This document shows, in pieces, positions 3,974 to 38,341 of a stretch of DNA of 64,000 nt. The DNA is from Candidatus Zipacnadia bacterium. Lineage in GTDB: Bacteria > Armatimonadota > Zipacnadia > Zipacnadales > UBA5352. Under the pieces are notes generated by a model. The model was given only the letters and a program-made list of their open reading frames with translations. It had not been told where the DNA came from and searched no databases. Made by a program: the position numbers and the translations under genes. The stretch's first letter is position 1. Every line of letters starts with the position of its first letter. The stretch lies in assembly GCA_029821735.1 (NCBI GenBank), contig JALGSU010000012.1:1-64000 (forward strand). The letters are read 5' to 3'.

Positions 3974-3990
3974 CCACGGGTAGAACCGAA

Positions 3991-4022
3991 ATGGCCCCAC
4001 GGCTGCGAAGCCGCGGGGCCAT
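3991..4022. terminator. Bidirectional hairpin between convergent operons
   Basis: ATGGCCCC-A-CGGCT / AGCCG-C-GGGGCCAT forms a 14-bp stem with one internal mismatch around a GCGA loop. It sits between the end of the THUMP methyltransferase and the end of the convergent response regulator gene. Only a short T-rich stretch follows on the plus strand (ATTGTTCG). Confidence 0.75.
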
Positions 4023-4043
4023 TGTTCGCTTCTGTGTTTCGGC

Positions 4044-4742
4044 TTACTCGTTCGTCTGGAACTTGTAGCCAACGCCCCAGACCGTCGCGATACTCCACGG
4101 CACCGCACGGTTCTCCTCGATCTTGCGGCGCAGGCGCTTGACGTGGGTGTCGACCGTGCGCAGGTCGCCCCCGCCGGGCCGGCCCCAGATGTCGCGGATG
4201 ATGTCGTCGCGCTTGAAGACGACGTTCGGCTTCGCTGCCAGGTAGACCAGGAGGCCGAACTCCTTGGGCGTGAGGTGCACCTCTTCGCCCTGAACAGTGG
4301 CGCTCCGCCGCGGGATGTTGATCTCCAGTTCGGAGAAGCTCAGATGCTCGAGGGGTTCGGTGTGCTCGCGATTGATCTTGACTCGCCGCAACATCGACCG
4401 CACCCGCGCTATCAATTCGCGCATCCCGAAGGGTTTGGTGATGTAGTCGTCCGCGCCGACCTCGAGGCCGATAACGACGTCAATTTCGTCACTCTTGCCG
4501 GTCAGCATGATGATCGGCAGGTCGTACTTGCGCCTGATCGTCCTGCATACCTCAAGCCCATCCATGCCAGCGAGGATAAGGTCCAGAATCAGCAGGTCTG
4601 GCATGTCTTCTTCGACTATCTCCAGGGCGGCCTCGCCAGTCTCAGTGACGGTCACCTCGAAGCCTTCTGCTTCCAGCTTGGTTGCTACCAGTTTGCTGCA
4701 CTGAACGTCATCCTCTACGATGAGGACCTTGCGGTTCTCCAA
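4044..4742 (-). CDS. OmpR/PhoB-family response regulator
   Basis: A two-component transcription regulator of 232 residues. The receiver domain (about 4-118) has acidic residues in VLIVEDD, the phosphoacceptor D54 in LLILDLILAGMDG, and the conserved Thr/Lys in MLTGK and YITKPFG. A winged-helix DNA-binding domain (about 135-230) includes LTPKEFGLLVYLAAKPN and VDTHVKRLRRKIE. I place the start at TTG 4742, because GGAGGT lies 7 bases before it and the product then begins MENRKVLIVEDD; the track start GTG 4757 overlaps that Shine-Dalgarno. No histidine kinase gene adjoins it, so it is an orphan here. Confidence 0.93.
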   Translation of the reverse strand: MENRKVLIVEDDVQCSKLVATKLEAEGFEVTVTETGEAALEIVEEDMPDLLILDLILAGMDGLEVCRTIRRKYDLPIIMLTGKSDEIDVVIGLEVGADDYITKPFGMRELIARVRSMLRRVKINREHTEPLEHLSFSELEINIPRRSATVQGEEVHLTPKEFGLLVYLAAKPNVVFKRDDIIRDIWGRPGGGDLRTVDTHVKRLRRKIEENRAVPWSIATVWGVGYKFQTNE

Positions 4743-4826
4743 CGTGCGCACCTCCACGGGATCTGTGTAAGGTCTTTTGGCAACTCACGTGGGTCTCACT
4801 AAGTTGCGCGGTTTGTTATGTCCGTA

Positions 4827-4855
4827 ATGATACCAGAACGTGGCGCTGAACGCAA
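4827..4855 (-). promoter_or_regulatory. Sigma-70-like promoter for the response regulator
   Basis: On the minus strand TTGCGT, 17 bases, TATCAT. It would give a 5' UTR of roughly 80 bases before the regulator start. Confidence 0.55.
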
Positions 4856-5133
4856 CTGCATTTGATTGAATAGTGAACTGTACAAGATTTCCCGAACTTC
4901 CGGCGTGGCGATCCTTCGTGGTCCAGTGGCAAGAGCCCCACGTAGCGGTCACAAAGCGTCTTGTCAGGAGAGATCGGGGACTATGACAAAGCAAGTTTTG
5001 CTGTTAGGGCCAAAATCCATAACCGCCCCATTGAACGCCACCATTGGCGTTCCTGACCAGTGTTCTTAAGATTCAGACGCTTGAGCATATCATATGTTCC
5101 GCTTGCCGCCAGGGAGGTAGGCTGCCGGTTCGG
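4856..5133. other. Intergenic spacer with a short perfect hairpin
   Basis: No credible gene is seen; the short ORFs have no recognisable features. A perfect 8-bp palindrome, GAACGCCA-CCAT-TGGCGTTC at 5033-5052, lies about 80 bases past the sugar kinase stop. It lacks a T tract, so it may be a weak terminator or a protein-binding site. Confidence 0.4.
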
Positions 5134-6114
5134 CTAGGCGGGCGGGGGGTCATCCGTAAGAGCCAGGACTTCGTCGAAAGTCGGGTTGGGAGCCGATGCC
5201 TGACGGCTGATTCGCACGGCCGCAGCGTCTGATGCGAATCGGGCCGCCCGCGTCGGCGGCATTCCGCTCAAGTGACCGGCCAGCAGGCCGGCATGGAAGG
5301 TGTCGCCCGCCCCGATATCGTAGGCTACCTCGACGTGTCGGGGCGGCACCTCGCTCAGCTCCCCGTCGGCCAGCAGCAGAGCGCCATCCTCCCCGCTGGT
5401 CACCACTATGATGCGTGGCCCGAGCTGCGCGACAGCGTGGGCTGCAGTCGGGAGGTCTTCGCTGCCAGCGATCAGGTGCGCTTCGTCACAGTTCATCAGC
5501 ACAATGTCGGCGGCCGCGCACGCCTCCCGTTGCACCGCCACGACCTGCTCCTCGCTCTGGCCGCGCCACGAGGACGGTCGGTAGTTGACCGCGTAGCAGA
5601 CCTCGCGCCCGGCGGCACGGGCCAGTGCCGCCGCATGAAGCGCCGCCGAGCGCAGCGGCTCGTTGCGGACAGTCGCCTCGGTGAAGTCGAACAGCTTGCC
5701 TGCAGTGACCTGCGCGGGGTCAATGGTTGCGGCGGTGAGGGTGCCCATCGGGTCACAGTGGTCCTCGAAGCGGTAGAAGTAGAAGGTCTTCGCCCCGCCT
5801 TGGTCCATCCAGGCGAAGGAAACCGGCGTCATCTGCCCGGGGACCATCTCGGTGAAGCTCGTGTCGATGCCCCGCTCGGACAGCCGGTTGATCAGCCACT
5901 GGCCCAGTTCGTCGTCACCCACTCGCGAGATGAAGCCCACCGTGATGCCGAGCCCCGCCAGCACTCCGGCGAAATTCGCGGCTGCCCCCGAGGGCAGTGG
6001 CATCATCGTGTCAACTTCCGCGAGCGACTGGCCCATCTCGGTCGGCGTAATCTCGACCAGTGACGAGCCGATGACGACGAGATCGTGCGTTGGCGCATCG
6101 CTTGGCTGCGTCAC
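5134..6114 (-). CDS. PfkB-family carbohydrate kinase
   Basis: An ATP-dependent sugar kinase of the ribokinase/PfkB fold, 326 residues. The N-terminal motif PSGAAANFAGVLAGLG (compare GG-x-xN-xA) and the C-terminal signature AYDIGAGDTFHAGLLAG are clear. The Asp of GAGD is the expected catalytic base. Substrate cannot be read from sequence; 2-keto-3-deoxygluconate, fructose or another ketose are all possible. The upstream E2-like acyltransferase ends 3 bases before this start, so the two are almost certainly co-transcribed. They lie divergent from a xylose-isomerase-like gene, consistent with a role in sugar catabolism. Confidence 0.9.
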   Translation of the reverse strand: MTQPSDAPTHDLVVIGSSLVEITPTEMGQSLAEVDTMMPLPSGAAANFAGVLAGLGITVGFISRVGDDELGQWLINRLSERGIDTSFTEMVPGQMTPVSFAWMDQGGAKTFYFYRFEDHCDPMGTLTAATIDPAQVTAGKLFDFTEATVRNEPLRSAALHAAALARAAGREVCYAVNYRPSSWRGQSEEQVVAVQREACAAADIVLMNCDEAHLIAGSEDLPTAAHAVAQLGPRIIVVTSGEDGALLLADGELSEVPPRHVEVAYDIGAGDTFHAGLLAGHLSGMPPTRAARFASDAAAVRISRQASAPNPTFDEVLALTDDPPPA

Positions 6115-6117
6115 CGG

Positions 6118-6816
6118 TTATGCCCCCAACTGCTCTGGCTCGCCGAAGATATCCGAGAGGGTGACGAGGAATGCCGCCCCGTCTGCGCCATCGGAAGATC
6201 GGTGATCCATGACCAGCGTCATGTGTACTGACTGGCGGGCGACGACCTCGCCGTCCACCACCATGGCGTGGGGTATGATTGAGCCTACGCCGAGGATTCC
6301 CGCCTGCGGGGGGCTGACGATCGGCGCGAACGAGTCGATGCCCACGGGCCCGAGGTTGGAGATGGCGAAGCCCGCGCCCATCTGCAGCGAGGCCCGGAGC
6401 TTGCCCGTGCGGGCCAGCTCCACCAGTTCGGCGGTTTCAGTCGCCAGTTCGACGAGCGACTTGGTGTCGGCTTCCCGGACGCATGGCATGAGGACGCCTT
6501 GCTCGGAGCTCACCGCAAAGCTGATATTGATGGAGTCAAGGATCTTGACTTCCTCGTCCTCCACCCAGGCGCAGAAACGCCGATGCTCGCGCAGCGTGAG
6601 CGCGACGGCCTTGAGGATCATGTCGTTGTAAGACGGCACTCGCTCGAGGCCGGCGCCCTTGAGCTGCGTGCGCATCGCCATCAGGGGCTCCATGTCGACC
6701 AGTGTGCGCAGGTGGAACTGGGGCACCTCGTTGACGCTTCTGGCCACGTGCGCCGCGATGTTCTTGCGTGCGCGCGAATATTCTACGACTTCAAAGGTTT
6801 CCTCTTGTCGTGGCAC
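6118..6816 (-). CDS. 2-oxoacid dehydrogenase E2-type acyltransferase, catalytic domain only
   Basis: The product of about 232 residues is only the CoA-dependent acyltransferase core of 2-oxoacid dehydrogenase E2 enzymes. Motifs seen are FAISNLGPVGIDSFAPIVSPPQ, the trimer-core signature, and DHRSSDG carrying the expected catalytic His (usual form DHRxxDG). GTG 6816 is chosen because GGGAGGT lies six bases upstream; the longer track ORF adds about 145 residues that look unlike any E2 lipoyl or E1-binding domain and lie opposite other sequence. No E1 or E3 gene is nearby. It may therefore act as a free-standing acyltransferase rather than part of a dehydrogenase complex. Confidence 0.85.
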   Translation of the reverse strand: MPRQEETFEVVEYSRARKNIAAHVARSVNEVPQFHLRTLVDMEPLMAMRTQLKGAGLERVPSYNDMILKAVALTLREHRRFCAWVEDEEVKILDSINISFAVSSEQGVLMPCVREADTKSLVELATETAELVELARTGKLRASLQMGAGFAISNLGPVGIDSFAPIVSPPQAGILGVGSIIPHAMVVDGEVVARQSVHMTLVMDHRSSDGADGAAFLVTLSDIFGEPEQLGA

Positions 6817-7017
6817 AGCGATACCTCCCGGCACTCTCTGACGGACGCTCGTCTTCGTCCACCACACGAGAATGCCATTTCGCCGAGCGGGCCCACGCGC
6901 CCTGCAATGTCCCGGAGCCGAGGGAGGGTTCGTGCGCCTCGGTGGAGAATGAGAGACCCCGGCCGACCGGGCCGGGACGTGCGTGATGACGGAGGCCGTG
7001 CGCCTCTTGAATGGGTG
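6817..7017. promoter_or_regulatory. Divergent control region, E2/PfkB operon versus isomerase operon
   Basis: This 200-base spacer separates two oppositely oriented sugar-metabolism operons and must hold both promoters. I see no consensus hexamer pair that I would defend. Confidence 0.4.
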
Positions 7018-8160
7018 ATGAGCATGGGAATACAGGATCTGTCCGCTCAGAAAGTCCGACGCACCGGCGATGACTTGGTCAAGCACCTCGAGAGCTTTGA
7101 GCTGGATCTGAAGTTCACCGCCGGCGTATGGTTCTTCGCGCCCGGTGGCGGCCGCTTCCATGATCGCTATGTGCCTGACATGACCATGGAAGAAAAACTC
7201 GAAATTGCCGTCGGTCTGGAGAAGTACGGTCTGGTGGGGCTTGAGGCGCATTACCCCAGTGAGGTCAACGAGGACAATCTCGACCTCTTCAAGGACCTGG
7301 CCCGAGACACCAACCTGCGTCTGGTCGCGCTCGTTCCGGCACTGTTTTACGACGCCCAGTTCGAGTTCGGCTCACTGTCGTCACCGGTGGCCAGCGCTCG
7401 GAAGGCGGCCATTGAGCGCACCAAGCGGACGTTTGAGCTGAACCTCGAACTCGAGACGGACTTCTCGATCGTCTGGCCCGGCATCGATGGTTTCGACAAC
7501 ACTTTCGGCCAGAACCACATCGCTGCTCGCGATCGGTTCGCCGAAGGCTTGGCCGAGGCCATGGACGCGGTGCCCGGCGTGCGAGTATGCATCGAGCCCA
7601 AGCCCTACGAGCCACGTTGCAACATCATCTACGGGACCACCGCCGAGGCGCTGCTGCTGTGCGACAAGGTCGAGAGCCTGCTCGGCAACGCCGAGAACCG
7701 TGCGCGTATCGACGGTGGCACGCCGATGATGGGCCTTAACCCCGAGGTCGGTCACGTGCTGATGGCTTTCGAGGACCTGGCCTACGCCTTCAGCCTGATC
7801 TGTGAGTACGGCCGGCTGGGGCATACCCACTGGAACTCGCAGCCGCTGGGCAACTACGATCAGGACCTGAACACAGGCGTGGTCTATCCCGAGCAGACCG
7901 AGGCCGCGATGTACATGCTGAAGATGTGTGGCTATGATCAGCTCTTCGGCATCGACATCAACCCCGAGCGCATGCCGGTTGAGCGCGCGCTGATGAACAA
8001 CTTCGACATGCTCCGGGCGGTCAACGACCGTATCAATGGTATGGACCATGCGGCGGTCGTGGACTGCGTGGAGAACCCGCAGGACAACCGCGGCATCCTG
8101 GAAGCCATTCTCATCAGGACGCGCTACCCTGGCGCCACCGGCCTGTCGGAACTGAGTTAG
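7018..8160 (+). CDS. Xylose-isomerase-like TIM-barrel sugar isomerase
   Basis: A metal-dependent aldose-ketose isomerase-like protein of 380 residues. Family features are CIEPKPYEPRCN (compare EPKPNEP in xylose isomerase), GLNPEVGHVLM with metal-ligand Glu/His spacing, and a late GHTHWNSQPLGNYDQDLN segment that supplies metal-binding acidic residues. Start ATG 7018 (MSMGIQ) is chosen; ATG 7024 is an alternative with GGTGATGA just before it. The 173 upstream residues of the track ORF are antisense to the E2 gene and are not conserved-looking. It could act on xylose, rhamnose or a related sugar; it heads a plus-strand operon. Confidence 0.85.
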   Translation: MSMGIQDLSAQKVRRTGDDLVKHLESFELDLKFTAGVWFFAPGGGRFHDRYVPDMTMEEKLEIAVGLEKYGLVGLEAHYPSEVNEDNLDLFKDLARDTNLRLVALVPALFYDAQFEFGSLSSPVASARKAAIERTKRTFELNLELETDFSIVWPGIDGFDNTFGQNHIAARDRFAEGLAEAMDAVPGVRVCIEPKPYEPRCNIIYGTTAEALLLCDKVESLLGNAENRARIDGGTPMMGLNPEVGHVLMAFEDLAYAFSLICEYGRLGHTHWNSQPLGNYDQDLNTGVVYPEQTEAAMYMLKMCGYDQLFGIDINPERMPVERALMNNFDMLRAVNDRINGMDHAAVVDCVENPQDNRGILEAILIRTRYPGATGLSELS

Positions 8161-8175
8161 GGGCAGCGTCAGGTG

Positions 8176-9301
8176 ATGAGTGAATCGATAGAGAGCGACC
8201 TGAAGCTCTTCTGGGGCGACCTGCATTTCCACTCGTCGCTTTCGAGGTGTTTTCAGACGGGCTGTGGCCCCGAGGGCCACGACGGTTCGCAGCAGCAGTG
8301 CTACGACTATGCCCGGGACGTCGCAGGCATGGACTTCGCGGCCTGCACTGATCACGATTGCGCCAACGAAAAGCCGGTCCTCAGCGAAGAGGACTGGGCT
8401 GGCATCAGGCAGACAGCGGCCGAGGTCAATGACCCCGGCCGCTTCGTCGTTTTCAGCGCCTACGAGTGGACTAACGTGCGCCAGGGCCACTACGCGGTCT
8501 ACTACTTGCGTGACGATGGTCCGCTGATACCAGTGAACATCTACCCGTTGCCGGGCGATCTGTGGGCGGCGCTGCGTGCCGCCGGGCAGACCGGCGAGAG
8601 CGTCATGACCGTGCCCCATCACCTGGCGCGGTGGACGGTGGCCAACGACTGGGACTGGTTCGACGCTGAGTTCCAGCCGGTCGTGGAGATCACCTCAGCG
8701 TGGGGCAACTACGAGCACTGGGGCAACCCCTACGAGTGGCGGCTACCGCTTCGGCTTCCTCGGCGGCGGCGATATTCACGACGGCCGGGCGGGCGGCCAC
8801 GCACCATCTTGGCAGGAGATTCCGCTGCCGGAGTCAGCCCGGAACCTGCGCGCCCTCCGCCGCAATCCGCTGGGTGGTGGCATCACCGGCGTCTATGCTC
8901 GCGAACTCACTCGCGAGAGCATCTTCGAGGCCATTCGCGCGCGCCGGACTATCGCCGCCACGGGTGAAAAGACCGAGCTGCGCATGTGGGTTGACGGGAC
9001 CTTCGTCGGCGGCCGCGCGAAGGCCGAGGGCGAGCAGCACGAGCGTCGCCAGATCACCGTCAGCGCGCAGGCCGACGTCCCGCTACGCACCATCGAGATC
9101 GTCCGCAACGGGCTGACGCTCTTCCGCGAGCGCTGCTCTGGCACCAGCGAGTCAATGGAGTTCACGGATGAGTACGGGCTGGCGAAAGTACTGCCGCCGC
9201 TGCCCAGCACTGATGGCGCCGGCAGCGTGTACTACTACGCGCGCGTTACTCGTGAGGACGACCGCATGGCGTGGAGCAGCCCGATCTGGCTGGACTTTTG
9301 A
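8176..9301 (+). pseudogene. DUF3604-type metallohydrolase (PHP-like), frameshifted
   Basis: Two frames together give one protein of about 375 residues. The first frame (from ATG 8176, or GTG 8173) holds LFWGDLHFHSSLSRC and ACTDHDCAN, the metal-binding motifs of DUF3604/PHP-like enzymes. It continues to NPYEW near 8739. The second frame resumes at 8741 with GYRFGFLGGGDIHDGRAGG and runs to the TGA at 9299. One extra C at about 8740, or a loss of two bases, explains the break. Downstream of the shift the first frame becomes Arg/Pro-rich nonsense. It may be an assembly indel or a recent mutation. Neighbours overlap it closely on both sides. Confidence 0.8.
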
Positions 9302-22747: not shown

Positions 22748-23977
22748 ATGAGCGAACGCCCGGCGAGCCAATCCGCAGCTCCCACGCAGCGCACCGTCAG
22801 CCTGAGGCGTGCTGCCCTGGCCTTCGTGTTGCTGTTGGCCCTCGGCACGCGCCAGTACGTGCTGCTCGACTTCGCCACGCCACTTAGTGAGAAGATCGAT
22901 CGCGACGGCTACCACAAGTTGCTTGGCGTGGCGGCGGACTCGAGCCCGCGCGCCGTGCTTGGATGGTTCATCGGCGACGATCCCCAGCGCGTACACGCTT
23001 TCAGGCCGCTACCCGCTGTGGCGCTGGCGGCGCAGTACCGTCTCTGGGGATGGCTCCGCTGGCCGTACCTCGCCGCGAACATCCTCCTCTTCACCGCAAC
23101 CGCGCTGGCGCTCGTGTGGCTGGGGCTGCTGCTGGGCATGCAGCCGCGCGTGGCGTTCATGGCCGGTGCGCTGCTGATGATCGTGCCCTCTCGGAGCTCG
23201 CTGAACGTCCTGCAACTGATAGCGACCCAGCCGGACGTGTTCTGCACGCTCTTCGGGATACTGGCGGTCGGCTGCCTGATCCGCTGGCTCGATGCGGGGC
23301 GCCGCCGGTCACTGGCGGCGATGTGCGGCTTCGCACTGCTGGCCTGCCTGTCTAAGGAGATGGGCATCGCCCTGACGCCGGTCATCGTGGTATTCGCACT
23401 CGCCCATCTGCGCCGGCGGCCGCCGCGCCGGATCGTGATGGCGTGCGTTGGGGTGTTGCTGATGGGGGCCATCTGGATCGTGTGGTACCAGTTGGCGCGG
23501 GGGAACATGCCGACCGAGGCGCACCCCAGTCACACCTTCGCGGGTATGTGGCTGCTGCTGACCGAGCGCTGGGCGAACTGCCTGATGCTCTACCTGCAGT
23601 CGCTGTGCCGCCCGCTGGTACAGGTGTTCCGCTGCCTCTACCACGCCGACTGGTGGATACTCCTCTTCCATGGACTGTGGCTGGGCGTGGCTAAGCTGGC
23701 CCTGTGGCTGTGGGCGGTGTGGCTCTTGTGGTGCTATCGTCCACGCTGGCTGGTTGTGCTCGTCTTGTGGAAGGTCTTCACCTACCTGCCTGTTCTCCCC
23801 CTCTGCGGCGCCTGGGGCTGGTACTACCATATGCCACATATTCTCGATCACATCTTCCCGGTGGCTGTGGTGTGGGTGTTCGTGGTGCCTTTCGGCGGAC
23901 CGAGGCGGATGGTAGGCTGGTGGCATGCGCACAGCCCCTTCGGGGACGGAGGGAACACCCGCACAGAGGCGAACTGA
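22748..23977 (+). CDS. Polytopic membrane protein, possibly GT-C-related
   Basis: A 409-residue hydrophobic protein with about 9-10 membrane segments, no clear family match by eye. Segment AFRPLPAVALAAQYRLWGW follows a first loop containing an acidic GDDPQRVH region, and ACLSKEMGIALTPVIVVFA has the 'KE-G' signature seen in some GT-C/TMTC-type mannosyltransferases. The C-terminus is basic. ATG 22748 has a TGAGG element just upstream. A 36-base gap leads to the giant beta-propeller gene, so they may be co-transcribed. A role in protein or lipid glycosylation is only a possibility. Confidence 0.6.
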   Translation: MSERPASQSAAPTQRTVSLRRAALAFVLLLALGTRQYVLLDFATPLSEKIDRDGYHKLLGVAADSSPRAVLGWFIGDDPQRVHAFRPLPAVALAAQYRLWGWLRWPYLAANILLFTATALALVWLGLLLGMQPRVAFMAGALLMIVPSRSSLNVLQLIATQPDVFCTLFGILAVGCLIRWLDAGRRRSLAAMCGFALLACLSKEMGIALTPVIVVFALAHLRRRPPRRIVMACVGVLLMGAIWIVWYQLARGNMPTEAHPSHTFAGMWLLLTERWANCLMLYLQSLCRPLVQVFRCLYHADWWILLFHGLWLGVAKLALWLWAVWLLWCYRPRWLVVLVLWKVFTYLPVLPLCGAWGWYYHMPHILDHIFPVAVVWVFVVPFGGPRRMVGWWHAHSPFGDGGNTRTEAN

Positions 23978-24013: not shown

Positions 24014-27000
24014 ATGGTCATGACCGCGTCAACAGGTGTCCGTCCCATTGCGACGATGCTCACGGTGTTTGTGCTGGGAGCGCTCCTGCTGTCAGCCCTC
24101 GCCGCCGGAGCCGATGACTGGCCGGCCTTCCGCCACGACCGCGAGCGTAGCGGCCTGACAACTGAGGGCCCCGAGGCGCCCCTGCCCCAGCGCTGGACCT
24201 TCGCGCCGCAGGCTCCGCCTCAGCAGGCTTGGTCCGGTCCTCGCGACGAGCCAGTTGAGGGCAATTGGGAGATACACCGCGTCGACTACGACGCCGCCAA
24301 CCACATCGTCGCGGTCGGCGATCGCGTCTACTTCGCCTCTTCGGGCGACAGCCGCGTATACTGCCTCGACGCCGCCACCGGCCAGCAGGTCTGGACTTAC
24401 CTGTGCGGCGCGCCCGTGCGCCTCGCGCCGACGGTGGCCGAGGGGCGGATCTACTTCGGCTCCGATGATGGCTATGCGTACTGCCTGTCCGCCGCCGATG
24501 GCTCTACTGTGTGGAAGCTCGCCGCCGGCCCCGATGATGGTATGTGCATCGGCAACGGCCGGATGATCTCCCGTTGGCCGATCCGCACTGACGTCCTCGT
24601 GGACGGCGGGATTGCGTATTTCGGCGCGGGCGTCTTCCCGCATGAGAAGGTCTACATCTACGCTGTCGACGCCGCGACAGGCGAGCTGGTCTGGCGCAAT
24701 GATACGATTGGCCAGCAGAATGCCGGTCGCAACGGCTTCTCGCCCCAGGGCTACATCCTCGCCTCCGATACCCGCATCTTCGTCCCTTCCGGGCGCGACC
24801 TGCCCGCGGCCTTCGACCGCGAGACCGGTCGCCAGATATTCCAGTCGCGCGACTCCTGGCGCTCGAGTAATATCGTCGGTGGCACCTACGCACTGCTGCA
24901 CGGCGAGCATCTGCTGGTCGGCGCCAACCAGGCTGTCGCATACTCACAGGAGACCGGGCGAGGCGGCTTCGCCTGGTTCCCTGCCCGCCGCCTGGTCGTG
25001 GGTGAGGACAAGGCGTGGATGTCCACGCACACGCAGGTGAGTTCGGTGACCTTCGAGTCCTACGCTGAGGCCACGCGCCTGCTCAAGGCTCAGCAGCGCA
25101 AGCGCACCGCTGCCAGCAGCAAGCTCTCCGTCGTGAAGCGCACGCTCGCGGCCGAGAAGCGCAAGCCCGAGGATCAGCAGGACGCAGATCGCATCGCTGA
25201 AGTCGAGACGCAGGTCGCCGAGGCTCAGACTGCGGTCGACGAGATCAAGGCTGAGATTGAGCGTTTGCAGGGCGACAACGTCGAGCCCAGCACCAGTTGG
25301 GCCGTCGATCGCGTCTGCGTGGAGGCACTCATCGTTGCCGGTGGCCTGGTCTTCGGCGGTGGCGACGGTGTGGTCTACGCCTTCAACCGTGACACCGGCG
25401 AGGAAGTCTGGAGCGCTGAGGTCGCCGGTCGCGCCAGATCACTGGCTGTCGCTGGCGATGCGCTCTACGTGGGCACCACTGAAGGCTTGGTCTACGCCTT
25501 CGGTCAACCGCTGGACGGCATGGCGACCGCTGTGCCCGCTGCGCCCGCTGCGCTGGAGCCCTTCCCCGACGATGCTCTCACCGCTGCCTGCTCCGCCGCC
25601 GCGGATGCGATCGTGGCGCAGAGCAGCGTGACCCGTGGCTACGCGCTGGTGCTTGGCGCGGTTGACGGCCGCCTCGCCTGCGAGTTGGCGAAGCGCACCG
25701 AGCTGAAGATCTACTGCATGGCGCCCGATGACGCCTCCGTCCAGCGGGTGCGCGCGACCGCCGACGCCGCTGGCCTGTATGGTTCGCGCATCTGGGTTGA
25801 GCAGGGCGAGCCGTCCCACATGCGCTTCAGCAGCTACTTCGCCAACCTGACCGTCTGTGAGAGTCTGATCACTGACGGGACACTGCCCGACGCGACACCT
25901 GAGCTGGTCAAGCGCATCAAGCCCTGCGGTGGCGTGGTCTGCATCGGCCGCCCGGTCAATGCACCGGCCGCCGCCGCTGGCCGTGCGGCCGACCCCGGCC
26001 CGTGGGTGAAGTCGCTTGGCCTGGGTGATCCTGAGACATCCACTGAGCAGGGCAATTGGGCGCTGCTCACACGACCGGGCCTGTCCGGCGCCGGCGACTG
26101 GACCCATCAATATGGCGACGCAGCCAACACCACCTGCGGGACAGACACCATCGTCAAGGCCCCCTTCCGGATGCTCTGGTACGGTGATCCCGGGCCTGAC
26201 AAGATGATCTCACGGCATGCCCGCTCGACTGCCCCTCTGGTAGTCAACGGCCGCTTCTTCGCTCAGGGCTTCGACCTGCTCATGTGCTATGACGCCTACA
26301 ACGGCATGCAGTACTGGGAGCGCGAGATGCCGGGCGCCATGCGCGGTTCGGTCAGCCATATCGCCTCGAACTTGTGTGCCAACGAGGAGGCGTTCTTCGC
26401 GGCGATCGGTGGCCGCTGCCTGCGGCTGGATCCCGACACTGGCGAGACCGTCCGCACGTATGACCAACCCGGGGCCGATGACCCGGTGAAGTTCTGGGGC
26501 TACGCTGCCACCGCCGGTAACGTGCTCTTTGGCACCACCGGTATGGCCGATGCGCTCGACGCGAATGGCGTGCCGCAACGCTACAACCGTGACAACGGTC
26601 GCAGCACGCGGATATTCGGGCTGGACATTGAGACTGGTGAGACGCGCTGGTCGCACGACGCCACGGGCGAGATTCGCAACATCACAATCTCGATCGGTGA
26701 CGGCAAAGTCATGTTCGCTGAAAGCGGCGTGTCGGACGCTGAGCGGGCCGAGGCGCTCGCGCCGCGCGTTGCAGCTGCGGAGGAACTGACTGGTGCGGAC
26801 CGCAGCATCGCCGACGAGCGCATCGCGCGCGCCGAGGTCGTGAAGGCGTGGTGCCTGAACGCGGAGACCGGTGAGACGATCTGGTCCCGACCAGTTGACG
26901 TCACTGACTGCGGTGGCATGTCGAGCCTGCTAATCACCATGTATAAGGACGACGTGCTGGTCTTCTGTGGTGCGCACGGCAACGGCCACTTCTGGCACCA

Positions 27001-29191
27001 ATTCCTCGGTGGCGAGTTCGGTGACCGGCGGGTCGTGGCGATCGACACCAACGATGGGCACACGCTCTGGAAGCAGGCAATCGGCTACCGCATCCGCCCG
27101 CTCATCGTCGGCGACAAGCTGGTCGCGGAGCCGTGGGCCTTTGATCTGAAGACCGGCGAGCAGAAGATGCGAAAGCACCCGCTCACCGGTGAGGAGAGCG
27201 CCTGGCAGTTCGAGCGCCCCGGCCATCACTGCGGCTCGGTCGCGGCGAACACGAATACCCTCTTCTTCCGCTCCTACAGCTTCGCGTACTATGACCTGAT
27301 CAACGATTACGGCACCAGCCACTCCGCCGGCCAGCGCGCTGGCTGCTGGATCAATTTCCTGCCGGCCAGCGGCCTGCTGGTCATGCCTGAGGCGAGCTCG
27401 GGCTGCCAGTGCTTGTTCTCGATACAGAGCACGGTGGTTCTCGAGCCATGGGAGGACGGCCGCGAGTGGGGCATCTTCAGTTCGCCCGGTCCGCACAAGC
27501 CCGTGCGCGAGGCCCACATCGATATCGGTGGTCCCGGCGACCGGCGTGATGACGCGGGCAATCTGTGGCTTTCGTATCCGCGGCCGAGCTCGCGGATGCA
27601 GGTGGAGGTGGATATGCGACTGGCAATGGCCGAAGGTGGCGGGTACTTCCGCAACGATGCCGACGCAGTGCGCCTCAAGGGCACCGAGACCCCGTGGGTG
27701 CATGGCACCGGGGCGGCGGGCCTGCAGCGGATCGTCATGCCGCTGCTCGAGCCGGGGAATGAGCCCATGGGGTACAGTGTCGCGCTGCACTTCGCCGACT
27801 CGGCCAACACTGAACTGGGGGCGCGCGTGTTCGATGTGAAGCTGCAGGGCGAGACCGTCCTGGCCGATTTCGACATCGCCGGCGAGGCGGGCGGACCCGA
27901 CGGCGCCGTGATCAAGCGCTTCGAGAACGTCCAGGTGCGCCGCGCGCTGGAGATCGAGTTCGTGCCCAAGACCGACATCGCTGACCCGGTCTCATCACCG
28001 CTGCTCAACGCCATCGAACTGAAGGGCGCCCCCCTGCCGGAGATGCAGGTGCAGGTGGGTAACTTCGCCCAGCCCATGGAGGTCTACAACGTGGGCTACT
28101 GGTTCGCAGACCTCATCCGCGAGCGCACCGGGGCGGATATCGCGATGGTGCCCGGCGCTGCTCTGTGGTCGGACGGCGACACGTACCCCGAGGGCGCGAT
28201 GACGCTCGGGCAGCTCTTCGCCCGCCTCGGCGACGTGCGACTTGTGCGCCACACGATCGTCGGTGCTGACCTGCTGGCGTATCTCGACAAGCCGTGGGTT
28301 AGGGACCGCTTCAACCCGTATCATCACCCGAAGACGTCGCTGGAGGGTAACCCGATCTATTCGTCGGGGATCGATCTCGTCTACAACGCCGAGGCGCGCC
28401 GACCGTTCTTTGGCATCAAACCCCAGCGCACCTACACGGTGATCACGACCTCGCCCTTCGCGGGCGGTCTGCCCGACATGCCACCTGCTGTGGCCGACAC
28501 GCTGACGGCCATCGCCGGCCTGCAGACTCAGCAGAGCGAGTGCCTCGAGCAGACCACGTGGGACCTGCTGGGGGACGCCTCCAAAGCGGGCCGGATGGAC
28601 TTCGCTCGGCGCTACTCCGAACCGAGTGAGGACTGGACCGTGTGGCGCGAGCACTCCGAGGAGGACATGGGCTTTGGCGTCACCGAGTGGCCCGCCGACA
28701 AGCCCACAGAGACCTTCGAGTGCATCGCAGACGCCTCGGTTGGCCTTGGCGCTCCGGACACCAACAACGGCGCGGCGACTGTCCTCTCCCATGACGGCGG
28801 CAGCGGGGCCATGTATGACAGCAGCTTCAAGATGGTCTACCTGCAATTCCCGGTGACGGTGCCTGGCAAGCCGATCGCCGCGAAGCTGGTGATGCGGATG
28901 CACACCGGCGGCAACTCGCAGAGCACGGACGCGGGGGACGTGTACCTTGCCGAAGACGCGTGGGATGAGATGGGCATCACGTACAGCAATCGGCCTCTGC
29001 CGACTGAACGCGTGGGCAGGCTTGGCGAGGTAGGGAACGGCACTGTGGAGGAGCGTCTGCTGCAGATCGACTTGCGAGGGCGCGAGGAGATCACACTCGT
29101 GCTCGACCCGACCAGCGTCGATGGCGCAAACTTCCTTGCGCGCGAGAGTGAAGGGGTGCCCACGCTCATCATCGCGTACGAACCGGAGTGA
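24014..29191 (+). CDS. Giant secreted PQQ-type beta-propeller multidomain protein
   Basis: The 1725-residue product begins with a signal peptide (MLTVFVLGALLLSALAAGA). Domains by eye: PQQ/quinoprotein propeller blades (about 35-345; VYCLDAATGQQVWTYL); a charged coiled coil (about 350-420; KLSVVKRTLAAEKRKPEDQQ); more blades; a methyltransferase-like Rossmann segment (about 515-650; GYALVLGAVDGRLACELAKR); a second propeller (about 695-1155); a malectin-like domain (about 1160-1340; VFDVKLQGETVLADFDIAGE); a 5'-nucleotidase C-terminal-like domain (about 1342-1535; DLIRERTGADIAMVPGAALW); and a DNRLRE-like C-terminus (about 1562-1725). ATG 24014 has GGGAG upstream. Function unknown, perhaps extracellular binding or redox. 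The next gene starts 9 bases downstream. Confidence 0.85.
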   Translation: MVMTASTGVRPIATMLTVFVLGALLLSALAAGADDWPAFRHDRERSGLTTEGPEAPLPQRWTFAPQAPPQQAWSGPRDEPVEGNWEIHRVDYDAANHIVAVGDRVYFASSGDSRVYCLDAATGQQVWTYLCGAPVRLAPTVAEGRIYFGSDDGYAYCLSAADGSTVWKLAAGPDDGMCIGNGRMISRWPIRTDVLVDGGIAYFGAGVFPHEKVYIYAVDAATGELVWRNDTIGQQNAGRNGFSPQGYILASDTRIFVPSGRDLPAAFDRETGRQIFQSRDSWRSSNIVGGTYALLHGEHLLVGANQAVAYSQETGRGGFAWFPARRLVVGEDKAWMSTHTQVSSVTFESYAEATRLLKAQQRKRTAASSKLSVVKRTLAAEKRKPEDQQDADRIAEVETQVAEAQTAVDEIKAEIERLQGDNVEPSTSWAVDRVCVEALIVAGGLVFGGGDGVVYAFNRDTGEEVWSAEVAGRARSLAVAGDALYVGTTEGLVYAFGQPLDGMATAVPAAPAALEPFPDDALTAACSAAADAIVAQSSVTRGYALVLGAVDGRLACELAKRTELKIYCMAPDDASVQRVRATADAAGLYGSRIWVEQGEPSHMRFSSYFANLTVCESLITDGTLPDATPELVKRIKPCGGVVCIGRPVNAPAAAAGRAADPGPWVKSLGLGDPETSTEQGNWALLTRPGLSGAGDWTHQYGDAANTTCGTDTIVKAPFRMLWYGDPGPDKMISRHARSTAPLVVNGRFFAQGFDLLMCYDAYNGMQYWEREMPGAMRGSVSHIASNLCANEEAFFAAIGGRCLRLDPDTGETVRTYDQPGADDPVKFWGYAATAGNVLFGTTGMADALDANGVPQRYNRDNGRSTRIFGLDIETGETRWSHDATGEIRNITISIGDGKVMFAESGVSDAERAEALAPRVAAAEELTGADRSIADERIARAEVVKAWCLNAETGETIWSRPVDVTDCGGMSSLLITMYKDDVLVFCGAHGNGHFWHQFLGGEFGDRRVVAIDTNDGHTLWKQAIGYRIRPLIVGDKLVAEPWAFDLKTGEQKMRKHPLTGEESAWQFERPGHHCGSVAANTNTLFFRSYSFAYYDLINDYGTSHSAGQRAGCWINFLPASGLLVMPEASSGCQCLFSIQSTVVLEPWEDGREWGIFSSPGPHKPVREAHIDIGGPGDRRDDAGNLWLSYPRPSSRMQVEVDMRLAMAEGGGYFRNDADAVRLKGTETPWVHGTGAAGLQRIVMPLLEPGNEPMGYSVALHFADSANTELGARVFDVKLQGETVLADFDIAGEAGGPDGAVIKRFENVQVRRALEIEFVPKTDIADPVSSPLLNAIELKGAPLPEMQVQVGNFAQPMEVYNVGYWFADLIRERTGADIAMVPGAALWSDGDTYPEGAMTLGQLFARLGDVRLVRHTIVGADLLAYLDKPWVRDRFNPYHHPKTSLEGNPIYSSGIDLVYNAEARRPFFGIKPQRTYTVITTSPFAGGLPDMPPAVADTLTAIAGLQTQQSECLEQTTWDLLGDASKAGRMDFARRYSEPSEDWTVWREHSEEDMGFGVTEWPADKPTETFECIADASVGLGAPDTNNGAATVLSHDGGSGAMYDSSFKMVYLQFPVTVPGKPIAAKLVMRMHTGGNSQSTDAGDVYLAEDAWDEMGITYSNRPLPTERVGRLGEVGNGTVEERLLQIDLRGREEITLVLDPTSVDGANFLARESEGVPTLIIAYEPE

Positions 29192-29200
29192 GGCGCTGCA

Positions 29201-31537
29201 ATGAGACTGACCATTGGTTCCAGCGTCATCGCTGCGATCGCCATCCTTTCGGTGCTGAGCGCCCACGCCGACGAGGTGGTATACGCGGGCACGGTTGTCA
29301 GCGCCTCTGATGGCCAGCCGATATCCGGGTCTGGGGTCGCCGCGCGGCTGTACGGTGAGGGCGGAAGCACCTGGGTGTCAGTCGAGACCGATGCCGAGGG
29401 CCGCTTCGAGTTGCGGCATGAGGGGTCCGGCAATGCGGCTCAGATAGTGGCGGCCGCGGTGGGCTACGCCGTGGGCCACGCGGTGACTGTCCCCGGACGT
29501 CCTGCAACCATAGAACTGTCGGCTGACCTCGGCTCGGTCACGGGAATTGTGCTGGGCGATGGCGATCCGATCGAGGGCGCAGAAGTGTTCGTGACCCACT
29601 TCCGCGTGGACGGTCGTCGCTACGATGAAATGGTGTCGACATGGGGCTGGGAGAGCACTCCGCACGCGATCACAGGAGCAGATGGACGCTTCGAGGTGAC
29701 GGGTCTGCCGCAGGGGTCACACGTGATGTTGCGGGTCTCTGCGCCGGGATGGGTGACGTGGTACTGGCCGAGCCTGTCGGGGCGGGTGCCGGTCGGCGAT
29801 AGTGTGACTATCAGGCTCGAGGTCGAGGCGGCGATTGAGGGTCGCGTGGTCATGGCAGGCGAGCCTGTCGCGGGCGTAGAAGTCTGTGCTACGCCGTGGC
29901 CCTACGCTTCAGTTTCTGACGACGCGGTCAGCGATGAGGAGGGCCGCTACCGCATCGGCAGTCTGAGGGCAGGCACGTGGCGCGTCCAGGCGACGGACAT
30001 GGGGGATCTCTACGCGCGAGACGAGCAGACCGTGAGTTTGACGGCGAGCGAGACGGCGACCGTGGACATTGAGCTGGCGGATCGTACCGCCGGGCCGGTG
30101 GTGTCCGGCACAGTCACGTTCGTGGACACCGCAATGCCCGCCGTCGGCGCCGAAATCGGCGGAGCATCCATCAACCACTACTCAGCCGGTGGTCCGCACT
30201 GGGCGGCGACATGTGACGAGCAGGGACGCTATCAGTTGCGCCTGCCGCCGGGGCCCGTCGTAGTCGGCTACACGGCGAACTTGGATGGCTATGACGGGCA
30301 GGGCGCTGAGCCACAAGGGCGAGAGATGCGTCTCACGGCGGACGGCGCCACGGTTGACTTCGTGCTCCACCGCACCGGCGAAGCAGTAGCGCCGGTCCCC
30401 TGCTTCGTCTTTGGCCCGGATCGAGAGCCGGTCGCGGGCGCGCTGGTCTTCGACGGTCGCGAGCCATACTACGGCCCCCCGGCGCGCAAGCCCATTGTTG
30501 CCGATGAGCAGGGCAGGTTCACGATGTCCCCGCCAGTCGAAGACGACCGAATCCTGCTGGTGACTGACCCAGAGCGGCGGTGCTGCGCGCTGGCGACGGT
30601 GTCGCGTGACACGCTCCGCCTGGAGGTCAATCTGGAGCCCGCTGCGTGGGCGGTGGCGAAGATTGTCGATATGGACGGGCAGCCAGTGCCGGGGATCGCC
30701 GCCACCGCGGCTCTCCCCACCGAGCGCGCCGGGATGCCCGGTGAGCGTGACCTGCCCGTCACCGGTGTGAGCGACGAGCAGGGCGAGATCCGCATCGGGC
30801 CGCTACCGCCGGGGCAATCCGTGGTGTTCGCGCTGCCCTGGGTCTGCAAGGCGATGGCGGTGGAGGACGCCTGGGAGGGGTTGGGGGAGATCGCCCTGGA
30901 TCCGGGCGAGACGTGGGAGTTGGCGGACCTGGTTCTCAATCCTGCAGGGCGCGTGCTGGAGGGGCGAGTGCTTGATCTGGCTGGTGAGCCGGTGTCCGGC
31001 GCCACGGTGCTCTCGACCTCGGGCATCTTCACGAAGGCGTTGACGACCAGCGGCGAGGACGGGCGGTTCCGACTTGAAGGGCTCCGCACTCTCGGCGAAG
31101 TGCAGGTGGTAGCCTTTTCCGATGACGGCATGAGGGCCATTGCGGTGAAGTGCGACCCCGACGACTGGCCGCGTCTGCGTCGCACGCTTCCGGCACGAGG
31201 CGAGCCCCACGAGTTGGGTATGGTGATGACGCTGGAGCCGCTCGCAGCCGTGACCGGTGACGTGGTTGACCTGGAGGATGAACCAGTGGCAGGCGCGGAA
31301 GTCGAGGTGACGACGTTTCGCGCCCGATACGGCCCAGCCTTCTCCCGGCAGGTGAGACTCCGCGTGACGACGCTGACCACGCAGGAGGGCACCTGGCGCG
31401 TTGAGGGCCTCATGGCCGGGCTCGAGTACAGAGCGTACGCAACCGACGCCAGGAGCCCTGACGCCGGCATGGCGGAGCTGGTAGTGCCCTCCAGCATCGA
31501 GACACAGTCGCTGCGACTGCGGCTGCAGCGGCGCTGA
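29201..31537 (+). CDS. Secreted carboxypeptidase-regulatory-like repeat protein
   Basis: A 778-residue exported protein with an N-terminal signal peptide (LTIGSSVIAAIAILSVLSAHA). It is almost entirely built of Ig-like carboxypeptidase-regulatory/CNA-B-type repeats. The repeated pattern is G-x-V-x-D-x-x-G-x-P-x-x-GA-x-V followed by D-x-x-G-R-F-x-x-x-G-L. Examples are GRVLDLAGEPVSGATVLSTS and EDGRFRLEGLRTLGEVQV. No catalytic domain is visible. It starts 9 bases after the giant propeller gene and probably works with it at the cell surface as a structural or adhesive protein. Confidence 0.8.
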   Translation: MRLTIGSSVIAAIAILSVLSAHADEVVYAGTVVSASDGQPISGSGVAARLYGEGGSTWVSVETDAEGRFELRHEGSGNAAQIVAAAVGYAVGHAVTVPGRPATIELSADLGSVTGIVLGDGDPIEGAEVFVTHFRVDGRRYDEMVSTWGWESTPHAITGADGRFEVTGLPQGSHVMLRVSAPGWVTWYWPSLSGRVPVGDSVTIRLEVEAAIEGRVVMAGEPVAGVEVCATPWPYASVSDDAVSDEEGRYRIGSLRAGTWRVQATDMGDLYARDEQTVSLTASETATVDIELADRTAGPVVSGTVTFVDTAMPAVGAEIGGASINHYSAGGPHWAATCDEQGRYQLRLPPGPVVVGYTANLDGYDGQGAEPQGREMRLTADGATVDFVLHRTGEAVAPVPCFVFGPDREPVAGALVFDGREPYYGPPARKPIVADEQGRFTMSPPVEDDRILLVTDPERRCCALATVSRDTLRLEVNLEPAAWAVAKIVDMDGQPVPGIAATAALPTERAGMPGERDLPVTGVSDEQGEIRIGPLPPGQSVVFALPWVCKAMAVEDAWEGLGEIALDPGETWELADLVLNPAGRVLEGRVLDLAGEPVSGATVLSTSGIFTKALTTSGEDGRFRLEGLRTLGEVQVVAFSDDGMRAIAVKCDPDDWPRLRRTLPARGEPHELGMVMTLEPLAAVTGDVVDLEDEPVAGAEVEVTTFRARYGPAFSRQVRLRVTTLTTQEGTWRVEGLMAGLEYRAYATDARSPDAGMAELVVPSSIETQSLRLRLQRR

Positions 31538-35817: not shown

Positions 35818-38001
35818 TCACCGTGTCAAGCTCAGCGTTCGCATCGAGGTCCAGCGTGCGCCGCTTGACGCGGTTGCCGTCATCCGCACCAGGTACACTC
35901 CCGACGGTGCGCGCAACCCCGCCGCATTCCGTCCGTCCCATGCCAGCGAGTTGATGCCCTCCGCCATCGGTCGGTCCACCACGATAGTCTTCACCGCACG
36001 GCCCGCGATGTTGAGCACCTCGCAGGTGATCGACGCATCAGCCGATAGGGTGAAGGTCATCTGTGCCCCGACCGCCGTCGGGCAACATGCCAGCGAAGCC
36101 ACTGTCATCACGACGCTCTTCGAGCTTACCGTCGGACCGGTGGCAATGGCAGCTGGCGGCCCCGTAGCCAAGATCCCTTCGGCACGAGCTTTGAACCGGT
36201 AGCTCCACACGCAGTCCCGGTTCAGTGTCTTGCGCAGGTAGAAGACCTGGCCCGTAGTGGGCGACCCCTTACCCGCGGTCATGAGGAACGGGTTGCTCGG
36301 GTGTGCCATGCCGTCGCGGTAAAGAAACAGACGCACATACTCCGGCGACGACCCGGTGTACTTCACTCGGAAGCGGAACTCGGCGCCGATATCGCCGCTA
36401 TTGGGATCCACCCCATCGCCCACGAAGCCCGTGTCACCAACCCACGCGAGTCGGGGACTGCCCACGAACGGCCCGGCGGTGACTGCGGTCGGTGGCCCTG
36501 CTGCCAATGCCCCAACTGCACGAGCTTTGAACTGATAGCTCCATGCACAGTCCTGGTTCAGCGTCTTGCGCAGGTAGAAGACCTGGCCGGTGGCAGGGGA
36601 GCCCTTACCTGCAGTCAGGGCGAACGGGTTGAGCGGGTGCGGCACACCGTCGCGATACAGGAGCAGGCGCACATACTCCGGTGACGGGCCGGTGAATTTC
36701 ACTCGGAAGCGGAACTCGGCGCCGACGGCGCCGCTATTGGGATCCACCCCGTCGCTCATGAAGCCCGTGTCGCCCACCCACGCGAGGCTGGAACTGTCCC
36801 CGATCGTCACTGACGCTTCGCCGGTGGCGCCGTCGTCGATGCCATCGTTGGGTGTCACCACACAGCGCCAAGTCTGACCGGGACTCGTTCTCCACGAGCC
36901 AAGCCCCGGCCAGACGCAATCCGTCTGCAGCACACCGTTCTTGTACCACTGGTACTTGTAGGTAACTGGATCGCCGTCGGGGTCAGTGCTACCCGAGGCG
37001 TTGGCCCGCAGCGAGTCGGCGGTGTTCGGACTCGCGGGGGAGATCACCACCGTCGGCTGCGTCGGGGGCGTGTTGCTGCGCGCGAACTTCTGGATGCGGC
37101 TGTTGTTACTGTCGGCCACGTACACGTTGCCGGAGGCACTAACCCCGATGCCGTCGGGGTGGTCGAACTGCCCATTGCCGGTGCCCTCCGAGCCCCACTT
37201 GGTGATAAACTCGCCGCTTGAGGTGAATTTCGCGATCTTGTTGTCGTAGTCGGATACGTATACGTTATCAGCGCCGTCAACCGCCACCCGCATCGGGCTG
37301 TGTAGCATCTGGTCGTAGGGGCCCGTGGTGCCCCACTGGGCAATGTATGCGCCGCTTGAGGTGAACTTCTGAACGCGTTGGTTGCCCCTGTCTACGACAT
37401 ACACTTTGCCGGAGACATCAACGGCAATGCCGGAGGGGTACTGGAACTGCCCATTGCCGATGCCCCAAGATCCCCATTTGGTAATGAACGCACCGTTTGC
37501 GGTGAACTTCTGAACGCGGTGGTTCTGTTCCTCAACTACATAGACGTGGCCGGAAGTACCTACAGCCACGCCGTAGGGCCAATTGAACTGCCCATTGCCG
37601 GTGCCCTCGGTACCCCACTTGGTGATAAACTCGCCGCTTGAGGTGAACTTCTGGATACGGTGGTTCTGGGTGTCGGCCACATATACATTGCCGGAGCCAT
37701 CTATAGCCACACCCCGGGCGACGCAGAACTGCCCATTGCCGGTGCCGCCAGAGCCCCATTTAGTGATGAGCGAACCGTCAGAGGTGAACTTCTGGATGTT
37801 GCTGTTGCTGCAGGCTGCTACGTACACGTGACCGGAGGCATCGAGCGCCACGCCTGCCGGGTAACTCTCCTCTTCCAAACCGGTGGCAGGGATGCCCCAC
37901 TTGGTGACGAAGGTATAGATCTGCGCCTGGGCAGCCGTAGCCGCCAGCATCAACACGACACACATGCAGACTGCGCTCTTTAGAACATCTCGCCGCATCA
38001 T
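35818..38001 (-). CDS. Secreted NHL-repeat beta-propeller protein with duplicated module and FlgD-like C-terminus
   Basis: The 727-residue product from ATG 38001 (GGGGAG upstream) has a signal peptide (VCMCVVLMLAATAAQA). Six NHL blades follow (about 25-310), each like GVAIDGSGNVYVADTQNHRI followed by QKFTSSGEFITKWG. After an Ig-like segment (NTPPTQPTVVISPASP) come two near-identical 106-residue modules (LAWVGDTGF ... GP). The last 80 residues resemble the FlgD Ig-like fold used in T9SS/FlgD-type sorting (VLNIAGRAVKTIVVDRPMAE). The track start adds 43 upstream residues without features. No catalytic domain; likely a surface sensor or adhesin. Confidence 0.85.
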   Translation of the reverse strand: MMRRDVLKSAVCMCVVLMLAATAAQAQIYTFVTKWGIPATGLEEESYPAGVALDASGHVYVAACSNSNIQKFTSDGSLITKWGSGGTGNGQFCVARGVAIDGSGNVYVADTQNHRIQKFTSSGEFITKWGTEGTGNGQFNWPYGVAVGTSGHVYVVEEQNHRVQKFTANGAFITKWGSWGIGNGQFQYPSGIAVDVSGKVYVVDRGNQRVQKFTSSGAYIAQWGTTGPYDQMLHSPMRVAVDGADNVYVSDYDNKIAKFTSSGEFITKWGSEGTGNGQFDHPDGIGVSASGNVYVADSNNSRIQKFARSNTPPTQPTVVISPASPNTADSLRANASGSTDPDGDPVTYKYQWYKNGVLQTDCVWPGLGSWRTSPGQTWRCVVTPNDGIDDGATGEASVTIGDSSSLAWVGDTGFMSDGVDPNSGAVGAEFRFRVKFTGPSPEYVRLLLYRDGVPHPLNPFALTAGKGSPATGQVFYLRKTLNQDCAWSYQFKARAVGALAAGPPTAVTAGPFVGSPRLAWVGDTGFVGDGVDPNSGDIGAEFRFRVKYTGSSPEYVRLFLYRDGMAHPSNPFLMTAGKGSPTTGQVFYLRKTLNRDCVWSYRFKARAEGILATGPPAAIATGPTVSSKSVVMTVASLACCPTAVGAQMTFTLSADASITCEVLNIAGRAVKTIVVDRPMAEGINSLAWDGRNAAGLRAPSGVYLVRMTATASSGARWTSMRTLSLTR
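36133..36786 (-). repeat. Intragenic tandem duplication, two 318-nt units
   Basis: Units at 36469-36786 and 36133-36450 encode 106 residues each, starting LAWVGDTGF and ending AGP or TGP, separated by a 6-codon linker. The two translations agree at about 78% of positions by eye, with no gaps. Confidence 0.9.
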
Positions 38002-38040
38002 ACCCAACTCCCCGCTCGCGTAGCATTGTGAGACCAAGTC

Positions 38041-38068
38041 ATTATACAGCGGTGCCAGAATATTGCAA
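38041..38068 (-). promoter_or_regulatory. Promoter for the NHL-repeat gene
   Basis: On the minus strand TTGCAA (38068-38063), 16 bases, perfect TATAAT (38046-38041). The gene start is 39 bases downstream. Confidence 0.65.
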
Positions 38069-38341
38069 TGATGACAAGCAGATACCTCTGGTGAACATAT
38101 CAACGCATGAGCTGCCATAAGCTTGAGCACATATTGGCCTCGCCAGGAACAAGGACGGCAGCGGCAACGAGCACAGCAACAATGACGACGCGGAATCTCC
38201 GCTACCCGTCTTCGCTGAAGCTTGGGCCTTCGCTAAAGCTATGGCCCACAAGCCGGTGGGAAGGCAAGGTCCGGGCACCACAAATGGCGAATGACTCATC
38301 GCAAGTCGTACTAGCCACACACACCGACGGGAGCGAGCGAC
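38069..38341. other. Spacer upstream of rph with an 18-bp imperfect direct repeat
   Basis: No gene is evident in these 273 bases. TTCGCTGAAGCTTGGGCC (38211-38228) is followed at once by TTCGCTAAAGCTATGGCC (38229-38246), two tandem copies with 3 mismatches. The spacer must hold the rph promoter, but I see no clear consensus. Confidence 0.5.

Follow-up and report, generated by a model that had tools for sequence, protein, structure and literature searches.

On balance, we read the 1725-residue protein encoded in the window (the whole stretch of 64,000 nucleotides that was analyzed) as a secreted scaffold that is probably non-catalytic and would bind glycans, and not as an enzyme. In its body, a degenerate methyltransferase-fold domain would link two rigid propellers. 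The propellers and a helical hairpin would present surfaces to which other proteins bind, much as in BamB, and the C-terminal array of malectin-like, 5'-nucleotidase C-terminal-domain-like (5NT_C), and CBM96 domains would bind an envelope or matrix polysaccharide, the 5'-nucleotidase C-domain having been reused for binding or spacing. In relatives, the protein would tie a LolC/FtsX-like ABC machine to a glycan or envelope layer outside the cell. The reading draws on the signal peptide, the secretory domain types, and the folds; on eroded enzyme motifs (motif I and NGGGIR) and the absence of a metallophosphatase half; on the exchange of tail modules around a constant core, a pattern typical of binding modules; and on the linkage of relatives to a partner protein, a permease, and an ATPase.

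The preliminary description had proposed a single uninterrupted frame with a signal peptide, in which two propellers, a coiled coil, a Rossmann domain, and malectin, 5'-nucleotidase-C, and DNRLRE parts follow one another. The frame is as described, with an N-terminal leader that reads as Sec-type, and all of the parts are present in the order claimed (Table 1). HMM domain searches and structure prediction, which that description had named as the check, find far more than propeller repeats and support nearly all of the parts. Pfam PQQ_2 matches the protein in six stretches (e-value 1.4e-45), and NCBIfam returns BamB-like and DNRLRE matches that are both below cut-off. The coiled coil and Rossmann parts have no HMM match in the 1725-residue protein alone and are present in the AlphaFold2 model. 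The PQQ-like blades were also said to be interrupted by the coiled coil and by a methyltransferase-like region; the former does lie inside propeller 1, but the latter instead sits between the propellers. Among 41 genomes of the same order that were searched, five others from the window's family encode orthologues, with 50–56% identity. These keep the domain order, which rules out chance or an assembly artefact.

Table 1. Features of the 1725-residue protein gene and its immediate neighbours (positions in the window).
Feature	Position	Strand	Basis
Polytopic membrane protein, weak PMT_2 glycosyltransferase similarity	22748..23977	+	Pfam 3e-4, below cut-off; 36 bp upstream
Whole gene, 1725 aa	24014..29191	+	ATG start; stop codon 29189-29191; open frame and orthologues
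Signal peptide, residues about 1-33 (LLLSALAAGA|DDWP)	24014..24112	+	Sequence itself; comparable hydrophobic leaders in orthologues
Propeller 1, residues 34-500, 8-bladed	24113..25513	+	PQQ_2, AlphaFold2, Foldseek, VIA
Helical hairpin (coiled coil), residues 347-426, inside propeller 1	25052..25291	+	AlphaFold2 helices
Class I methyltransferase-like Rossmann domain, residues 521-690	25574..26083	+	AlphaFold2; profile and Pfam matches of relatives
Propeller 2, residues 691-1145	26084..27448	+	PQQ_2/PQQ, AlphaFold2, cysteine columns
Malectin-like domain, residues 1162-1342	27497..28039	+	Pfam, VIA
5'-nucleotidase C-terminal-domain-like (5NT_C), residues 1351-1554	28064..28675	+	Pfam (weak), VIA
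CBM96/DNRLRE domain, residues 1562-1725	28697..29188	+	Pfam, VIA
Secreted 778-aa protein, carboxypeptidase-regulatory-like domains	29201..31537	+	Pfam PF13620, five stretches; 9 bp downstream

The AlphaFold2 model of residues 31–1195 (29 sequences) has a pLDDT of 82 and a pTM of 0.85. Propeller 1 aligns over its full length to BamB, YxaL, and tetrathionate hydrolase (VIA Z about 28–32, model 1–470), and Foldseek matches it to 3q7m (e-value 2e-18). The 8-bladed fold is shared with BamB, the outer membrane protein assembly factor (Z about 28–31), but an orthologue of BamB is ruled out because the NCBIfam equivalog TIGR03300 scores 86 bits, far below its cut-off of 285.2. The protein differs from BamB, YxaL, and tetrathionate hydrolase in its hairpin insertion and far larger size. 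The hairpin is formed by helices 347–383 and 391–426 (pLDDT about 90), and its length among relatives ranges from absent to more than 100 residues. A second, small helical hairpin is found in propeller 2 at about residues 908–938. Propeller 1 filled the list of fold matches to the N-terminal model, leaving out the Rossmann domain and propeller 2; the second propeller is thus assigned from its Pfam repeats and the model.

Cysteines are the strongest reason to keep an enzyme in mind. In propeller 2, C1073, C1111, C1131, and C1133 are invariant wherever a member's sequence spans them; C157 and C802 are present in 29/29 members. These near-universal cysteines could coordinate a metal that has a chemical role, and they weigh against the scaffold reading. 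The protein would then be an extracytoplasmic enzyme with a metal or cofactor site in propeller 2, and its C-terminal modules would merely deliver it to glycans. Such an enzyme would fit the polar motifs found alongside the cysteines (RPGHHCG, GCWIN, and SSGCxC), the weak matches to quinoprotein families, and the presence of tetrathionate hydrolase and quinoprotein dehydrogenases among propellers of the same fold. However, the scores against PQQ-dependent alcohol/glucose dehydrogenases are far below the curated cut-offs (57.9 vs. 480 bits for TIGR03075 and 31.1 vs. 833 for TIGR03074), which rules out a quinoprotein enzyme; the adjacent Cys-Cys pair of the PQQ alcohol dehydrogenase type is absent from the 1725-residue protein; and the cysteines of propeller 2 may simply form disulfides. 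We consider an enzyme of this kind unlikely, and it is mainly the conservation of the propeller 2 cysteines that keeps it in play.

The domain between the propellers has Rossmann strands and helices along its whole length in the AlphaFold2 model. A profile of this domain from relatives matches PDB 3dlc (e-value 1.8e-15), and Methyltransf_25 is matched in 24/29 members (best e-value 1.9e-12), whereas the window copy by itself matches no family. Taken as a set, the domains unmistakably share the fold and ancestry of class I SAM methyltransferases (3dlc, Methyltransf_25/11). They differ from those enzymes in being parts of secreted proteins and in lacking the motif I acid throughout: the acidic position of SAM motif I is V, L, I, M, or C, and never D or E, in 29/29 members. 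The middle glycine of motif I is present in 14 of the 29, and the acid after strand 2 is D or E in 24. The SAM motif of the window copy is degenerate (V546 and GAVDG at motif I; also MAPD), and A570 takes the place of the acid after strand 2, so that neither (D/E)xGxGxG nor this acid is found. SAM is a cytoplasmic cofactor, not known to be available outside the cytoplasm, and a secreted methyltransferase-fold domain is therefore unexpected. Because motif I is eroded and the protein is secreted, the fold appears to be retained without methyl transfer, and the activity is probably lost. In several relatives, GxGxG is complete and strand 2 is still followed by an acidic residue, which argues against the scaffold reading, and these relatives may bind SAM or a nucleotide. 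Found outside the cell across several phyla, with an active-site motif that decays separately in different branches, the domain is a clear example of an enzyme fold put to a different use.

The three C-terminal domains match separately in fold searches (VIA and Foldseek). Their AlphaFold2 model (residues 1140–1725, 23 sequences) has a pLDDT of 77 and a pTM of 0.48, and this pTM leaves their mutual placing undefined. The malectin-like domain exceeds the Pfam cut-off (PF11721; e-value 1e-11, 45.5 vs. 23 bits), with VIA Z of 15–19 to malectin and malectin-like domains (15.1 to human malectin). The last domain likewise exceeds the cut-off of CBM96 (PF24517; e-value 8e-9, 35.9 vs. 26 bits). It shares its fold and sequence family with the chondroitin-sulfate-binding DNRLRE module 8wab (VIA Z 19.9) and the alginate-binding CBM96 module 7vbo (17.3). 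An arginine is central for alginate binding in CBM96 (PMC9971899). The central Arg36 of 7vbo is Lys in the window copy and Arg in just 1/11 family members, which also counts against the scaffold reading.

For the 5NT_C domain, Pfam 5_nucleotid_C scores 20.1 bits in the single-protein scan (e-value 7e-4), below the cut-off of 23.6, and 24.1 bits, just above it, in a six-frame scan of the genome; the best e-value among members of the same family is 1e-6. Residues 1351–1529 superimpose on 2z1a (VIA Z 11.6, 148 residues, rmsd 3.4). A PDB profile search with the segment gave a single poor match (e-value 0.66), so its identity is taken from Pfam and the fold. The 5'-nucleotidases (UshA, CD73, and 2z1a from T. 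thermophilus) have this C-domain fold and the weak sequence family match in common with it, but the protein in the window lacks their metallophosphatase domain, for which the Pfam scan of the 1725 residues gave no match, as well as NGGGIR and PFGN. At the substrate site, VPGAALW stands where the genome's own true 5'-nucleotidase, which also has PFGN, reads QNGGGIR. The string DRxNPxxHxxxS, followed by N and YxSG, is conserved in 6/6 family members, and this suggests that 5NT_C gained a new conserved site. The same genome encodes a stand-alone secreted 5NT_C protein of 217 residues without the catalytic half (C27:196854–197297, locus L091), a possible source of the module.

The conservation of domain order, proposed earlier as a further check, holds within the family, and outside it the core order is kept and the tail alone differs. 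Four of the five orthologues (in G001, G004, G005, and G007) cover residues 15–1725, and the fifth (G009) ends at a contig edge inside CBM96. Matches in the order's other families either span residues 1–1340 and then 1541–1725 or stop at 1336. Between malectin and CBM96, the window's family has a 222-residue segment with 5NT_C, whereas the other families have a 108-residue segment that looks Ig-like from its sequence; by alignment, CBM96 is orthologous on both sides of this difference. When the 5NT_C segment was searched against 291 genomes of the phylum, only the six same-family genomes and one ordinary 5'-nucleotidase were recovered.

A scan of 84,980 species (one genome each) found 28 loci, from organisms named Candidatus Zipacnadia, Armatimonadota, Planctomycetota, Kiritimatiellae, Lentisphaerae, and Phycisphaerae; a contig scan with a single sequence as the query gave no match. 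The named relatives that match best suggest a place for the window near the class Zipacnadia, in Armatimonadota. The proteins fall into length classes of about 1065, 1310, 1575, and 1715 residues, and we therefore describe the family as a fixed core with variable tails. The core is stable across Armatimonadota, Planctomycetota, and Kiritimatiellae/Lentisphaerae. The tails are none, malectin, malectin with Ig-like and CBM96, or, in the window's family only, malectin with 5NT_C and CBM96. In Planctomycetota, Kiritimatiellae, and Lentisphaerae, PQQ-type beta-propeller repeat proteins (for example, L047, L052, L053, and L059) have the same core of propeller, methyltransferase-like Rossmann domain, and propeller, many of them with malectin as well. 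One from Kiritimatiellae (L052) shares the tail with the 108-residue Ig-like segment and CBM96, but none has 5NT_C. A tree built from the core groups the 5NT_C proteins in a single clade with support 1.0; the sister relation of this clade has a support of only 0.36. As deeper relations are poorly supported, we can only infer that the Ig-like segment was replaced by 5NT_C, and not the reverse. The tail records domain exchange within one gene, in recognizable steps. Tandem pairs of family members with unlike tail lengths occur in Kiritimatiellae (L052:5093–13400) and at L049:5899–14665. A paralogue of about 1658 residues in the window's own genome, on contig C27, shows domain-in-domain insertion: a CBM9-like domain lies inside its malectin domain, and its propeller 2 carries another insert (L066, C27:384000–400000, 3530–8503 on the minus strand).

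Members of the family in Armatimonadota adjoin genes for a secreted Cys-rich protein, an FtsX/LolC-like permease, and an ABC ATPase. In 41 genomes of relatives, the Cys-rich partner lies within about 2.5 kb of a family match on the same contig at 13/19 partner loci (our own count), and the partner, permease, and/or ATPase adjoin a family member in most Armatimonadota loci with enough flanking sequence. The module was not found beside relatives from Planctomycetota, Kiritimatiellae, or Lentisphaerae where the flank was sufficient; L056 has a weak FtsX-type match about 8 kb away and nothing more. The partner has CPY or CDTPVY after its signal peptide, an internal CxC, and a C-terminal hydrophobic anchor, and has no match in Pfam, NCBIfam, or the PDB. 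Its family occurs at L069, L070, L071, and L072 (G012, G007, G019, and G022) and at L066, mostly near an FtsX/LolC-like permease. The linked permease has an FtsX domain and a LolCE-like score, and the ATPase a LolD/FtsE-like score, as in LolCDE, FtsEX, and MacB, but both are below all equivalog cut-offs and their partners are unusual.

EnvC works with FtsX, a precedent for a link between a hairpin and a permease. Such a link is not supported here, because there are module-linked members without the hairpin (the second copy at L043 and the paralogue at L066) and hairpin-bearing planctomycetal members without the module. The window copy has no adjoining module, and that of its own genome lies on C27, beside the CBM9-bearing paralogue. 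The ABC ATPase of this module is split over two overlapping frames (L093, C27:380500–386500, 3655–4619 on the minus strand), which appears to be a frameshift or assembly error.

The domains, their order and conservation, and the gene linkage in relatives are direct observations, and coupling of the protein to the ABC module in those relatives is likely; for the window copy, which is no longer beside the module, coupling would be a further step. More tentatively, the double-propeller protein, the anchored Cys-rich protein, and the LolC/FtsX-like ABC machine may form an undescribed envelope system, whose glycan-binding tail would have been rewired in the window's family from Ig-like to 5NT_C with its new site (DRxNPxxHxxxS, N). 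Literature searches found no description of the architecture with 5NT_C or of the linked module, and the paper describing the class Zipacnadia (PMC10290634) does not mention PQQ proteins in its text. Each part has a known fold, and the core represents a widespread unnamed family; the 5NT_C string and the linked module appear to be new. The linkage of relatives to the ABC module is the first testable handle on an uncharacterized envelope system of sediment bacteria.

A quite unlikely alternative is an adhesin or matrix protein whose tails are neutral, lineage-specific additions and which is functionally independent of the ABC module. The tails do vary among families, CBM9 sits inside the malectin domain of the paralogue, and the window copy is away from the module, but the core is highly conserved and relatives are recurrently linked to the partner genes. 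Slightly less probable again are extracellular ligand sensors in which the Rossmann and 5NT_C domains detect nucleosides, SAM/SAH, or nucleotides and signal to the FtsX/LolC-like ABC machine: the co-occurrence of two domains descended from nucleotide-handling folds in a single secreted protein, the GxGxG and the E/D after strand 2 retained by many relatives, the 5NT_C domain's own motif in all six members, and the ABC module linked to relatives would suit them, but the ancestral binding residues of both folds are gone in the window copy and most relatives with the module have no 5NT_C.

The neighborhood of the gene in the window differs from that of its relatives, a last point against the scaffold reading, and its flanking genes are not conserved at the orthologue loci. 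The membrane protein gene, the 1725-residue protein gene, the gene for the 778-residue protein, and a GNAT protein gene follow one another with gaps of 36, 9, and 14 bp and probably form an operon. Further along the window, on the minus strand (35818–38130), is a gene for a large NHL-repeat propeller protein with an FlgD Ig-like domain at its end.
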